Source of the DNA: a virus
IMG/VR virus record: IMGVR_UViG_3300044733_003359
Location: 1-20,299 of that record
Length of the DNA stretch: 20,299 bases
Reading direction: 5' to 3' (one strand)
Shown: piece by piece, positions 4,959 to 20,299 of the stretch
Layout of the letters: the number at the start of each line of letters is the position of its first letter
Numbering within the stretch: position 1 is the first letter of the stretch
Program-made: the position numbers and the translations under genes
Notes under the pieces: generated by a model
What the model saw: only the letters and a program-made list of their open reading frames with translations
What the model was told of the DNA's origin: nothing
Databases searched by the model: none

Positions 4959-5413
4959 GTTTCTGACTCCGGTGAAGTGGTGGGGGTAACGAGATTGCGC
5001 ACAGCCCAGTCACGAACAGATCGCCAGCGGCGGCGGCGTGACTGCTCATCGTTGCGCTCGTCGTGGTACTCGTTTTCGGAAACAACGGCATGAGCAAGGG
5101 TTTCGCTGATGTCAAACGGTTCAGCCAGATCGCGCCAATCCACGTCTGGATCAGTCGGATCAAACCGCAGCGGCACAGCATCGGCACCTCGTTGAATCCT
5201 TACGGCACCCAGGGCGCAGACGCAGCCGGTTTCGGGATCCTCCAACGATCCGGCTGCCAGCTCTGGCACCGGCAGAGCATCCAAGCCGGCGATCAGATCA
5301 CGCAGCAGTCGTTGACCACGGCGGCCACGGATGGCGCTTCGCATCGCTCCAGCGGCCTGGCCCTCCATCCACGGCTCATAGTCGTAGTCGTCGGAATCGT
5401 AGTAGCGGCTCAC
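4955..5413 (-). CDS. Phage hypothetical protein ('MSRYYDSDDYD' family), 152 aa
   Basis: The acidic-aromatic N-terminus MSRYYDSDDYDYEPW is followed by AMRSAIRGRRGQRLLRDLIA, then LDALPVPELAAGSLED and GCVCALGAVRIQRG. I recognise this order from a widespread phage early-protein family of unknown function. The C-terminus is acidic then Arg-rich (ERNDEQSRRRRWRSVRDWAV). The start is GTG (complement of 5411-5413), fixed by a GTGA overlap with the upstream gene. It is probably soluble and mostly helical. Confidence 0.75.
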   Translation of the reverse strand: MSRYYDSDDYDYEPWMEGQAAGAMRSAIRGRRGQRLLRDLIAGLDALPVPELAAGSLEDPETGCVCALGAVRIQRGADAVPLRFDPTDPDVDWRDLAEPFDISETLAHAVVSENEYHDERNDEQSRRRRWRSVRDWAVRNLVTPTTSPESET

Positions 5414-6210
5414 AGCCCCACCTCCACACCAGCCGCATCAATCACGCTTTGCAGGTATTTCGTAGCATCCTTGTTGGTGTCATAGAAATGCCCAGCCGCC
5501 TCCACTCCCAGCAGATACAAACCAGCCATGTGAACGCCAACTGCTGTTTCAAGCACGCAGCCAACTTCACCGGCCAGATGAACAGCCCAGCCGCTTATGC
5601 AGTGGGTCGTTTCGCAGGTGTGCCAGTCGTTCATGTACAGTGCACCCGGCTGCAGCGCAGCTCGGGCTACGGCGAGCAATCGAGCGGGAGCGTCTGCGGC
5701 AATTTTGAGTCCAATGACGCCGCTGAGGTTGGCGCCGCTGAGGTCGGCGCCCGTGAGGTTGGCGCCCGTGAGGTAGGCGCCCGTGAGGTCGGCGCCCGTG
5801 AGGTCGGCGCCCGTGAGGTAGGCGCGCGTGAGGTTGGCGCGCGTGAGGTTGGCGCCCGTGAGGTAGGCGCGCGTGAGGTAGGCGCCCGTGAGGTCGGCGC
5901 CCGTGAGGTTGGCGCCCGTGAGGTTGGCGCCCGTGAGGTAGGCGCCCGTGAGGTCGGCGCCCGTGAGGTTGGCGCCCGTGAGGTAGGCGCGCGTGAGGTT
6001 GGCGCGCGTGAGGTAGGCGCTAGGTCTTTGCAGTCGCTTACCCGTGCTCGAATCACTCAGCCACTGCGCGTGCAGTGCCAGGTCATCGGCTGTGATTGTG
6101 TCGGTGCTCATGGTGCGAAAGGGTGGGTTGATGAACAGTTGGCCTTCATGCAGGAATCCGCCGGTGCCCAGGCTGGGCGGATACCAGGTGCCGGCGGTGG
6201 TGATGGTCAT
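5410..6210 (-). CDS. Pentapeptide-repeat protein 1, 266 aa
   Basis: Residues 65-164 are 20 uninterrupted pentapeptide repeats of type A-(Y/N/D)-L-T-(G/R), which fold into a right-handed quadrilateral beta-helix. Residues 165-266 form a separate domain with WHTCETTHCISGWAVHLAG, shared with the second pentapeptide protein (8573-9139). Some pentapeptide proteins (MfpA, Qnr) mimic DNA and bind gyrase; that role is only a hypothesis here. The start at 6210 is chosen for its ATGA overlap with the upstream gene and an AAGGGGG sequence about 10 bases before it. An internal ATG at 6111 matches the start of the paralogue and remains a real alternative. Confidence 0.8.
   Translation of the reverse strand: MTITTAGTWYPPSLGTGGFLHEGQLFINPPFRTMSTDTITADDLALHAQWLSDSSTGKRLQRPSAYLTRANLTRAYLTGANLTGADLTGAYLTGANLTGANLTGADLTGAYLTRAYLTGANLTRANLTRAYLTGADLTGADLTGAYLTGANLTGADLSGANLSGVIGLKIAADAPARLLAVARAALQPGALYMNDWHTCETTHCISGWAVHLAGEVGCVLETAVGVHMAGLYLLGVEAAGHFYDTNKDATKYLQSVIDAAGVEVGL
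5719..6018 (-). repeat. 15-bp tandem array encoding 20 pentapeptides
   Basis: Twenty units of 15 bp with very little drift. The units differ almost only at the first base of the second codon (TAC/AAC/GAC) and the first base of the fifth codon (GGC/CGC). Such DNA-level identity points to recent expansion by slippage or recombination. Confidence 0.9.
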
Positions 6211-6389
6211 GCCGCCACCCCCTTGAAGCGGCTCAGGATGTGCTCTCGGTAGTTGAAGAACTGCGCCTCTGCTGGTGGTGCACCAGATGGCAGCCAATCG
6301 GCATGGAGATGAGACCATTCCCGCCAACAGCCCGATGCCCAACACCAGTGGCGGCCATTCATCTGGGCATGGTCAAGGTGGGGGGTCAT
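6207..6389 (-). CDS. Hypothetical protein, 60 aa
   Basis: A short Trp- and His-rich protein starting MTPHLDHAQMNGRHWCWASG and ending SRFKGVAA. I do not recognise it. It has only two Cys residues and no clear metal-binding motif. It fits exactly between the methyltransferase and the pentapeptide gene with ATGA overlaps at both ends, which is the main reason to accept it. Confidence 0.6.
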   Translation of the reverse strand: MTPHLDHAQMNGRHWCWASGCWREWSHLHADWLPSGAPPAEAQFFNYREHILSRFKGVAA

Positions 6390-8396: not shown

Positions 8397-8580
8397 CAAT
8401 CGCGCTCCATTCACCGCACCACCGCACCGCAGGGCACCGTGCTGGGTACTGCGGGCTGGTGCTCGGCCTCGGCGCATGACGGCAACACAGATTCACCGTC
8501 AAGTTGTCATCACTGGCGCGTCGCCAATAGCGACAGTTGAAACAACTCTGCTGTTCCATTGGCGGGTAACGATCAGCCAT
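8389..8580 (-). CDS. Small zinc-binding-type protein (CxxCRxW family), 63 aa
   Basis: The protein has SCFNCRYWRRA, then CCRHAPRPS and ends WCGEWSAIDD. This Cys/His pattern (FxCRyW, C-RHAP, WCGEW) is a small phage and bacterial family thought to bind a metal; the function is unknown. The start at 8580 overlaps the pentapeptide gene's stop by 8 bases; Met8 is an alternative start. It overlaps the downstream ribbon-helix-helix gene by 8 bases too. Confidence 0.7.
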   Translation of the reverse strand: MADRYPPMEQQSCFNCRYWRRASDDNLTVNLCCRHAPRPSTSPQYPARCPAVRWCGEWSAIDD

Positions 8581-9139
8581 CAGCCACCACCCCGCGCAAA
8601 TACTCCAGCGCCTTCTCATTCCTGTCATAGAAATGCTGATGCGCTTCTGTCCCTAGCAACAACAACCCAGCAAGTTCTGGACCCATCATTGACTCCATCA
8701 GCCGGCCAGGTTCGCCCGCCAAGTGAATAGCCCAGCCCGCAATGCAATGCGTGGTGCCGCATGTATGCCAATTGGACATCTGCAGCGCATCAGGTTGTAA
8801 TGCTGCAGCGGCTACAGCTTTCAGGCGATCAGCTGCATCGGCTGCTATTGGTAGGCCGACGGCATCGCGCAGGTCGGCACCCCGCAGGAAGGCACCCCGC
8901 AGGACGGCACCCCGCAGGTCGGCACCCCGCAGGAAGGCACCCCGCAGGACGGCACCCCGCAGGTCGGCACCCCGCAGGAAGGCATCGCGCAGGTCGGAAT
9001 CGCGCAGGTCGGCATCGCGCAGGAAGGCATCGCGCAGGTCGGAATCGCGCAGGTCGGCCCCGACTTTCACCAGTCGCACACCATCAGGTTCGCCGCGCAG
9101 CGATTTGGCGTGCAGCTCTAGTTCCTGTGCTGTAATCAT
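8573..9139 (-). CDS. Pentapeptide-repeat protein 2, 188 aa
   Basis: After an N-terminal helix (MITAQELELHAKSLRG) there are 13 pentapeptide repeats (residues 28-92) of type (A/S)-(D/F/V)-L-R-(D/G), predicted to form a short beta-helix. The C-terminal domain contains WHTCGTTHCIAGWAIHLAG, LAGLLLLGTEAHQHFYDRN and LEYLRGVV, and matches the end of the 5410-6210 protein. The two are paralogues with diverged repeat sequences. The paired Cys residues and conserved Trp/His of the tail suggest a small structural or metal-binding domain. A gyrase- or DNA-mimic role is possible but untested. Confidence 0.82.
   Translation of the reverse strand: MITAQELELHAKSLRGEPDGVRLVKVGADLRDSDLRDAFLRDADLRDSDLRDAFLRGADLRGAVLRGAFLRGADLRGAVLRGAFLRGADLRDAVGLPIAADAADRLKAVAAAALQPDALQMSNWHTCGTTHCIAGWAIHLAGEPGRLMESMMGPELAGLLLLGTEAHQHFYDRNEKALEYLRGVVADG
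8864..9058 (-). repeat. 15-bp tandem array encoding 13 pentapeptides
   Basis: Units of 15 bp (plus strand: ggcaccccgcaggtc and close variants). A 45-bp higher-order unit (ADLRG-AVLRG-AFLRG) is also repeated, which indicates amplification in blocks of three. Confidence 0.88.
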
Positions 9140-16197: not shown

Positions 16198-16395
16198 ATG
16201 AACGGTCCCTTCTCCCAGAACCCCAACCACCAGCTACGTGCTTCCTCCACAGCCATACGCCTATCCCCTGAACTCATGGCGCACGTAGACCGCGAACGCG
16301 ATCTCGTTGGCCTCTCACGTGCTGCCTTCATCCGCCAGCTCATCGCTGATCACATGCGCCGCGCTGCTCGTTCCGCACGCCGCGGCATCGCCTAA
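16198..16395 (+). CDS. Ribbon-helix-helix (CopG-type) DNA-binding protein, 65 aa
   Basis: Residues 18-22 (TAIRL) form a beta strand, followed by SPELMAHVDRERDL (helix 1) and SRAAFIRQLIADHMRR (helix 2). This is a clear ribbon-helix-helix fold, which dimerises to bind DNA. The N-terminal 16 residues are probably disordered and the C-terminus is Arg-rich. It is the first rightward gene, sits directly behind motif D and is 8 bases upstream of the primase gene. It may therefore regulate that operon or itself. Confidence 0.75.
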   Translation: MNGPFSQNPNHQLRASSTAIRLSPELMAHVDRERDLVGLSRAAFIRQLIADHMRRAARSARRGIA

Positions 16396-19043: not shown

Positions 19044-19058
19044 ACTGTTCACGCTGCT

Positions 19059-19076
19059 ACCGAAAACCGTTTCGGT
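19059..19076 (+). other. Hairpin after the primase-helicase gene
   Basis: ACCGAAA (19059-19065) and TTTCGGT (19070-19076) form a perfect 7-bp stem with a 4-base loop, 15 bases after the stop codon. A T-run does not follow, so it is not a classical terminator. It may protect the 3' end of the mRNA. Confidence 0.45.
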
Positions 19077-19077
19077 G

Positions 19078-19344
19078 GTTACGTTGGGTGTTTCGCCTGT
19101 TTTTGAGTGGTGGGCTGCGATCTGGGGGAATTGTTACGCGTTACGCCGGCCAAGGGATACAGCCCCCCATAAAGGCACATACATCCACACCCACACCCCT
19201 CCACAGTGATACGTCCCCAACTCTCTCTTTACTTATACCTTTTCTTGAATAGGTGTAACAGTGTAACAGGAGGGCCTGTATTTGAGTGGGGGGCTTGGGT
19301 TTGGGGTGTTACGAATCTTGTAACGCCCTGTTTCGGGTGTAACG
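19078..19344. repeat. GTTACG/GTAAC iteron-like cluster with a repeated block
   Basis: Eight GTTAC/GTAAC motifs lie in this gene-free stretch: 19078, 19133, 19140, 19255, 19263, 19308, 19320 and 19339. Two copies of GTGTAACA stand in tandem (19253-19268). GTTAC and GTAAC form a dyad with a 7-base spacer at 19308-19324. A longer block, CCTGTxTTTGAGTGGxGGGCT, occurs at 19096-19116 and 19275-19295 with two mismatches. The layout is like a binding-site array at a replication origin or operator. Confidence 0.6.
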
Positions 19345-19402
19345 GCTTGCCTGGCCCTGCTGACACCTACCCAGACTGACCCTGGCGCCAATGGGACGCA
19401 CG

Positions 19403-19423
19403 CCCCGCCTGCAGCGGGGTTTT
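19403..19423 (+). terminator. Rho-independent terminator
   Basis: CCCCGC (19403-19408) and GCGGGG (19414-19419) form a perfect 6-bp GC stem with loop CTGCA, followed directly by TTTT. It ends 4 bases before the ATG of the virion-assembly gene, so it should stop rightward transcripts coming from the primase region. Confidence 0.7.
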
Positions 19424-19427
19424 ACTC

Positions 19428-20165
19428 ATGCTCGACATCCGCCTCGATACAACTGGTCTCGACCGCTCAATACGAGGGCTGGAGCTGCTCACCGAGAAGA
19501 ACCTGCGCTATGCCAGTGGCCGTGCATTGCGCGACACCGTGATCAAGACCCAGGCTTGGCTCAAGGATGATCTGAAGACCAACCGCAGTAACCGCATTGA
19601 AGGCGGTGCCACAGCCTGGACCTACAACGCCACCTATCACGAACGACCCACACCTCAGAACCTAGTGGCTGAGGTTGGCCTGCGCACTGATCGGCCACGT
19701 GCTGCTGGTCGCTACATCTCTGTGCTCACGCAAGGCACAGAGCCACGCACCAAGGGCGCAGACCTGGCAGCTTCTGAACTTGTGGGCAGCAGGGTCACGA
19801 TGGTCCCCACTCGTTCGCAGCGCAAGGACAGCAAAGGCAACGTCACACGTGCTGCCTACACCAAGGCGCTCACGGGCTGGTCATCAGTCAGGAAGACGGG
19901 AACGATGGTGAACCGCGCCAATCGGATGTTCATCACGCCGATCAAGGGTGGGGAGGGCCGCTTCGGTATCTGGCAGCGGACCGGCCGTGGCAGCTACGAG
20001 TCATTCCGCGGAGCGCAGATGAAGTGGACGCTTGAGCCCCAGCCCAAGCGCCGAGCCAGCACGTACGACCTGAAGGGCGACCTACAGAAGCAGGTGCAGG
20101 TGTATTGGCCTGGGGAGATTGAGCAACAGCTGAGGGAGGAGCTGGCGCGGGCAGGCTTCCGCTGA
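19428..20165 (+). CDS. Virion-assembly protein (minor tail Z / HK97-gp10-like), 245 aa
   Basis: The N-terminus (MLDIRLDTTGLDRSIRGLEL, then NLRYASGRALRDTVIKTQAW) resembles the start of phage tail-completion/minor-tail Z proteins, which have an amphipathic helical segment with 'A-x-ALxxT'. The centre is beta-rich with RSNRIEGGATAW and AEVGLRTDRPRA, and the end is helical (EIEQQLREELARAGF). The assignment is based on general pattern and could be wrong. The codon composition differs from the primase (less C-rich). It follows a terminator, so it must have its own promoter or rely on readthrough. It is the only likely structural gene here. Confidence 0.55.
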   Translation: MLDIRLDTTGLDRSIRGLELLTEKNLRYASGRALRDTVIKTQAWLKDDLKTNRSNRIEGGATAWTYNATYHERPTPQNLVAEVGLRTDRPRAAGRYISVLTQGTEPRTKGADLAASELVGSRVTMVPTRSQRKDSKGNVTRAAYTKALTGWSSVRKTGTMVNRANRMFITPIKGGEGRFGIWQRTGRGSYESFRGAQMKWTLEPQPKRRASTYDLKGDLQKQVQVYWPGEIEQQLREELARAGFR

Positions 20166-20168
20166 GAT

Positions 20169-20279
20169 GGCAGGCCAGCACTGGGATTCTCAATAAGGCA
20201 GGCCAGCTATTGATTCTCAACACTGCTAATTATTGAGAACCCTTGCACTGCAGTGGATCTGGGTCCTTCCTGTTGAGAA
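20169..20279. repeat. Four-copy GRTTCTCAAYA motif cluster and 28-bp tandem unit
   Basis: TTCTCAA occurs at 20187-20193 and 20214-20220; its reverse complement TTGAGAA at 20233-20239 and 20273-20279. The middle two form a dyad. GGCAGGCCAGC is repeated at 20169-20179 and 20197-20207, giving a 28-bp tandem unit with the first two motifs. The stretch from 20166 to the end of the window has no gene. It looks like an operator or iteron array. Confidence 0.6.
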
Positions 20280-20299
20280 CAGAGCGGTTAGTTCCGACG

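Follow-up and report, generated by a model that had tools for sequence, protein, structure and literature searches.

The right edge of the window, the whole IMG/VR record of 20,299 b that we analyzed and itself a fragment, is the physical right end of a phage chromosome, and the cluster of short repeats at this edge surrounds a packaging signal. Taken alone, this end is almost certainly a lambda-type cos with a cosQ and a cosN. To the fuller reading, in which a picocyanobacterial phage has its lambda-type cos flanked by sites for the host ferric-uptake regulator Fur and the array makes up the left arm of that cos, we give about an even chance. The cos end is the ordinary part of this arrangement; the repeated host-regulator-like sites that flank it are the unusual part.

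A four-site array beyond the last gene

The features to which we refer below are as follows:

16198-16395, + strand: RHH protein gene, considered as reader of the array and disfavored
19428-20165, + strand: minor tail / neck gene (phrog_1924, phrog_27), the last before the end
20169-20179, + strand: direct repeat copy 1, GGCAGGCCAGC, not conserved
20185-20195, + strand: site 1, GATTCTCAATA (CTTATTGAGAATC on the opposite strand), with the exact FurA core ATTCTCAATAA at 20186
20197-20207, + strand: direct repeat copy 2, 28 b on from copy 1
20212-20222, + strand: site 2, GATTCTCAACA
20231-20241, - strand: site 3, GGTTCTCAATA (TATTGAGAACC)
20261-20267, + strand: cosQ-like packaging-termination signal GGGTCCT; the same heptamer lies at the lambda right end and is annotated as cosQ in phage 434
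20271-20281, - strand: site 4, TGTTGAGAACA, between cosQ and cosN
20287-20299, + strand: cosN, the cohesive-end sequence GTTAGTTCCGAC(G) and physical right end of the chromosome, where contigs from other samples end or begin

The sequence-only reading had described two forward and two reverse copies of a GRTTCTCAAYA-like motif, together with an 11-b direct repeat of period 28, directly downstream of a virion-assembly gene. The positions bore this out, since the heptamer TTCTCAA starts at 20187 and 20214 and its reverse complement TTGAGAA at 20233 and 20273, the repeat lies at 20169 and 20197, and the minor tail / neck gene ends at 20165. The full motif is exact in three of the four sites, the remaining one being TGTTCTCAACA. 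Simulations exclude chance as the source of the cluster: the array holds 4 sites in 93 b, a density reached in 0/1500 first-order simulations, where the maximum was 2 per 93 b. Across the whole window TTCTCAA occurs 6 times against a mean of 1.55 in shuffles, and six or more copies were found in 0/100 shuffles. The search for further copies that the same reading had proposed gave just two more in the window, at 814 and 12585, both inside ORFs. Other 7-mers with 4 close copies were found in the window only around 1249-1399, 5731-5805 and 8875-9036, regions with listed ORFs of low-complexity and pentapeptide type. The TTGAGAA sites were conserved in the relatives L006-L009; the 28-b direct repeat was not, and it is not essential to the site pattern.

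The right end of the chromosome

A scan with the last gene identified 16 relatives; L013 ends within the gene, and the other 15 extend past it. The motif was present past the last gene in all 15 relatives holding DNA there. On the right, the window, L008, L011 and L015 all terminated 0-2 b past one 12-13-mer, GTTAGTTCCGAC(G). Among 28 terS-bearing loci, 13 began in or at this 12-13-mer, 11 read through it and 4 began inside terS. Four contigs thus end and 13 others begin within the same sequence, and because one end is common to these 17 contigs, window base 20299 is most readily interpreted as the right end of the virion chromosome. A truncated promoter or replication origin at the window edge was ruled out, the edge being the chromosome end. 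In addition, contig G001 (48,419 b) carries an identical 12 nt, GATCCACGCAGC, at both ends and for this reason looks like a complete linear genome. The occurrence of the 12-mer at both ends fits filled-in 5' overhangs; cutting by terminase and the 5' polarity of the overhang are what these sequences suggest.

The lambda cosQ heptamer GGGTCCT lies 19 b left of the 12-13-mer, which marks the window end as a lambda-type cos. The spacing from cosQ to cosN was 19 b in the window and 19-20 b in relatives, and it is 23 b to the lambda end. According to the accessible part of a published account, cosQ ends packaging (PMC4669245). The signal appears to be widespread, since Serratia phage BZS1 and Acetobacter phage phiAP1 also have GGGTCCTTCC; GGGTCC was not found in the stretch examined of KLER1-1, R19R and Pioen. 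Right of cosN we found genes for TerS (phrog_57), a GpA-type TerL (phrog_15), portal and protease-capsid proteins, a packaging module that is lambda-like, with Nu1/GpA-type terminase genes adjoining cos. A separate TerL search in the genome contigs gave 0/19 candidates.

The end resembles lambda cos in having GGGTCCT close to the left of the cohesive end at a constant spacing, chromosome ends that share about 12 nt, TerS-specific iterons between cosN and terS (in L005, outside the window), and GpA-type TerL, portal and capsid genes next. It is unlike lambda in the sequence of cosN itself, in its 4-5 TTGAGAA sites on both sides, in the cyanophage minor tail gene directly left of cos, and in the HNH gene that stands between cos and terS in some cyanophage relatives. 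These observations supply a large group of uncultured cyanophages with a cos site, its cosQ and 12-nt cohesive end included, and they illustrate that the ends of metagenome contigs can mark phage termini.

In L111 and L112, cosN is the junction between a left arm of the L014 type and a right arm of the window type. The two appear to be natural recombinants with an exchange at the packaging site.

The sites keep their places around cos

We compared the positions of the sites relative to cosQ. They were about -74, -47, -28, +12 and +52 in the window's lineage, -76, -30 and +85 in L014/L016, and -102, -71, -48 and +53 in L053, so that across lineages sites recur near -74/-76/-71, -47/-48, -28/-30, and +52 to +54 or +85. 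When a gene that we take by eye to be HNH-like intervenes between cos and terS, as in L067, L075 and L082, the sites remain around GGGTCC. The array was absent in S-CBS1, S-CBS3 and S-LBS1, the last being the nearest isolate.

Directly before terS, at 10850-11020 of L005 and outside the window, lie GTCACA/TGTGAC repeats; in relatives whose TerS N-termini differ, GCAAGA, GCAACC or GTTGCA stands in their place. Such iterons look cosB-like and would change with their reader, TerS. The TTGAGAA sites co-occurred with all four iteron types (GTCACA, GCAAGA, GCAACC and GTTGCA) and with dissimilar RHH proteins. Their fixed places at cosQ and cosN, and their persistence across TerS types and divergent RHH proteins, point to a shared and probably host-encoded reader, a host factor being the simplest common one.

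What escaped the earlier reading is that the right edge is the virion chromosome end, cosN, and that cosQ lies within the array. Its advice to look further right for a late operon proved sound, as terS, terL, portal and capsid genes were found there. Its suggestion that the array controls the next unit holds in part, in that a late unit does follow, but the array tracks cos and not the next gene. Likewise, its view of the array as a target for a repressor or replication protein survives as sites of a protein-binding type, for which host Fur is the best candidate, while nothing supported a replication protein.

Resemblance to the cyanobacterial Fur box

The Fur box is commonly described by a 7-1-7 model. 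The consensus drawn from 44 distinct sites was YTRTTGAGAAY with little beyond it, the core being fixed by how sites were selected. This motif is identical to the core of the Anabaena FurA consensus, AAATAAATTCTCAATAAAT, as given in the accessible part of its published description (PMC4005646). The core of the Anabaena PCC 7120 FurA box in that text (TTATTGAGAAT / ATTCTCAATAA) is identical at window position 20186. It recurs with 1 mismatch at 20230 and 2 at 20213, a level (at most 2 mismatches) at which chance gives 1.8 matches in the window. Unlike the Anabaena box as described there, the phage sites lack a conserved AT-rich second half, and they are repeated around a packaging signal and not at an iron-gene promoter. 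A second half-site, in 7-1-7 form or as overlapping repeats, was not found in the 44 distinct sites. The cyanophage motif therefore reads as a strong half-site that does not have the conserved second half of a 7-1-7 Fur box.

No Fur gene was found in the phage's own genome. We searched nine picocyanobacterial genomes, reached via psbA, as candidate hosts of this phage. A best fur gene was available at eight loci, and the ninth genome, G020, has only lower-scoring Fur-family genes. At 8/8 loci TTGAGAA was located upstream of the best fur, 84-150 b from the Fur domain, although the genomes are related and the loci not independent, against a background of 0.013 TTGAGAA per 150 b at 22 other Fur-family loci. 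In eight Cyanobium-type genomes YTRTTGAGAAY occurred 41 times as compared to 8 for the reversed pattern; in four other cyanobacterial genomes the counts were 27 and 21, that is, little or no enrichment. The motif was within 300 b of fur in 5/8 genomes, mostly on the 3' side of fur before the next gene, and in G022 the nearest copy was 2.1 kb from fur. Outside the fur locus most host sites fell within ORFs, and the motif was absent at the feoB (0/7) and flavodoxin (0/2) promoters of the likely hosts. A search of the host genomes for full palindromes gave sites near genes that we take, by eye, to be znuA-like, and because of this proximity we suggest that these are Zur sites. The comparison with host genomes appears favorable to Fur but is not decisive.

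Fur binding and its effect are predicted from these sequences as follows. Terminase would recognize cosQ (20261-20267) and cut cosN (20287-20299), producing cohesive ends of 12 nt. Host Fur would bind the TTGAGAA sites, which lie left of cosQ, between cosQ and cosN and, in relatives, also just right of cosN. Bound in this way, Fur would sit across the packaging signal and ahead of the first late gene. It could then (a) repress transcription into terS/terL, or (b) occupy cos or alter its shape until Fur itself changes with iron status or infection. Replicating phage DNA can titrate a regulator, and with ~5 sites per genome it might also titrate Fur. If Fur does bind, there would be a direct link in major aquatic primary producers between the iron status of the host and the packaging or late expression of the phage.

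A recurrent CTATTGAGAATCGCTTGCAAAAGG-like stretch was also noted in the host loci L322, L326, L328, L342 and L316, where it precedes an ORF of ~197 aa that looks like a regulator, either beside fur or elsewhere; the phage sequence at 20231-20246, TATTGAGAACCCTTGC, is similar. Some ORFs look Crp-like by eye.

Alternative readers of the sites

Since in all arrangements found the array precedes the first late gene, a phage-encoded regulator might bind it and control the terS late operon. Candidates are the RHH protein, whose gene directly precedes that of the primase, and some late regulator not yet recognised. RHH genes were present in 9/12 records examined, including array-bearing ones, and the array-less S-CBS1 and S-CBS3 were without RHH. 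However, L011 has an array near-identical to that of the window while its RHH protein is just 33% identical, with a different recognition strand, and S-LBS1 has an RHH gene and no array. These two cases disfavor the RHH protein, and the array stays by cosQ and not by terS; a phage regulator of either kind is unlikely. We consider it equally doubtful that the reader is some unidentified host DNA-bending or nucleoid protein, with a role like that of IHF at lambda cosB and the likeness to a Fur box coincidental. The sites do hold their places relative to cosQ and cosN on both sides, the motif lacks the full Fur palindrome, and IHF acts at lambda cosB in the account available to us in part (PMC4669245). 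Against this, the motif is specific, matches a known regulator box and is present at fur promoters, and in the lambdoid phages a Fur box has a like position, their IHF site being elsewhere as far as the accessible text goes.

The TTGAGAA sites could also be recognition repeats of TerS, as repeats by cosN and near terS have the position of lambda cosB in the accessible part of the same source (PMC4669245). Yet the window's lineage has separate GTCACA iterons (x5) right before terS, which change with the TerS N-terminus while TTGAGAA stays constant; moreover, the arrays lie mostly left of cosN and stay at cos when terS is ~1 kb away. We rejected TerS as their reader on these grounds, and its probability is very small. 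Smaller still, to the point of being negligible, is the probability that the array is a hairpin, a terminator or a cluster due to chance. Sites 2 and 3, being inverted, have 7 b that could pair, but neither the simulations nor the presence of the motif in every relative with DNA past the last gene fits such an origin, and no hairpin is conserved, because the exact copies in L014-L017 all point one way. Host Fur remains our preferred reader.

A parallel in lambdoid phages

At the lambda right end TGATAATCATTATCA is followed by 6 b and then GGGTCCT. A Fur-type palindrome was present in 7/9 lambdoid ends examined, 4A7 and 2B8 being those without it. We then scanned lambdoid cosQ stretches, for which 80 matches were listed of at least 120 loci; 78 had 60 b to the left and gave 34 distinct sequences. 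With the consensus letters of E. coli Fur, a palindrome was counted at ≥11/14 positions. Among the matches listed, 23 of the 34 distinct coses had a Fur palindrome 5-8 b left of GGGTCCT and the other 11 scored 6-9 of 14, while random 60-mers from the lambdoid loci listed reached ≥11/14 in 1.15% of 1560. The GGGTCC of Serratia BZS1 and that of Acetobacter phiAP1 had no Fur box beside them. In E. coli K-12, the prophages Qin (nohA) and DLP12 (nohD) each carry a 14/14 Fur box 6 b from cosQ, and in Qin this is the sole full box near nohA. In the accessible part of a published table, nohA appears as Fur-repressed and an FNR peak at nohA is given as well, in U00096.2 coordinates (PMC3688515). We found no report of a Fur box at cos in the openly accessible literature.

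The boxes at Qin nohA and DLP12 nohD are like those of the cyanophages in that a Fur-type site lies just left of cosQ, upstream of a Nu1/TerS gene. They differ in being one full palindrome 5-8 b from cosQ, as against several half-site-like copies. We tentatively propose, at somewhat less than an even chance, that the cos phages of E. coli and its kin and those of picocyanobacteria, two groups unrelated to each other, have each set the Fur box of their respective host next to cosQ. The host iron sensor would in that case gate entry into the late genes or packaging at the end of the chromosome, or be titrated by replicating phage DNA. If Fur binds, the Fur regulation listed for E. coli nohA, so far without an explanation, would be a remnant of the same thing.

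Other features of the window

The 384-b gap after the primase gene (19044-19427) holds 8 of the window's 30 GTTAC/GTAAC copies, which are candidate origin iterons. In S-LBS1 (L136, 34241-34611) a different dense repeat, GGTTAGGCAG-like, occupies the same place after the primase. Two long ORFs on the minus strand (5410-6345 and 8573-9139) have pentapeptide-type repeats, and a low-complexity ORF at 1202-1498, also on the minus strand, has GYGNGDG repeats.
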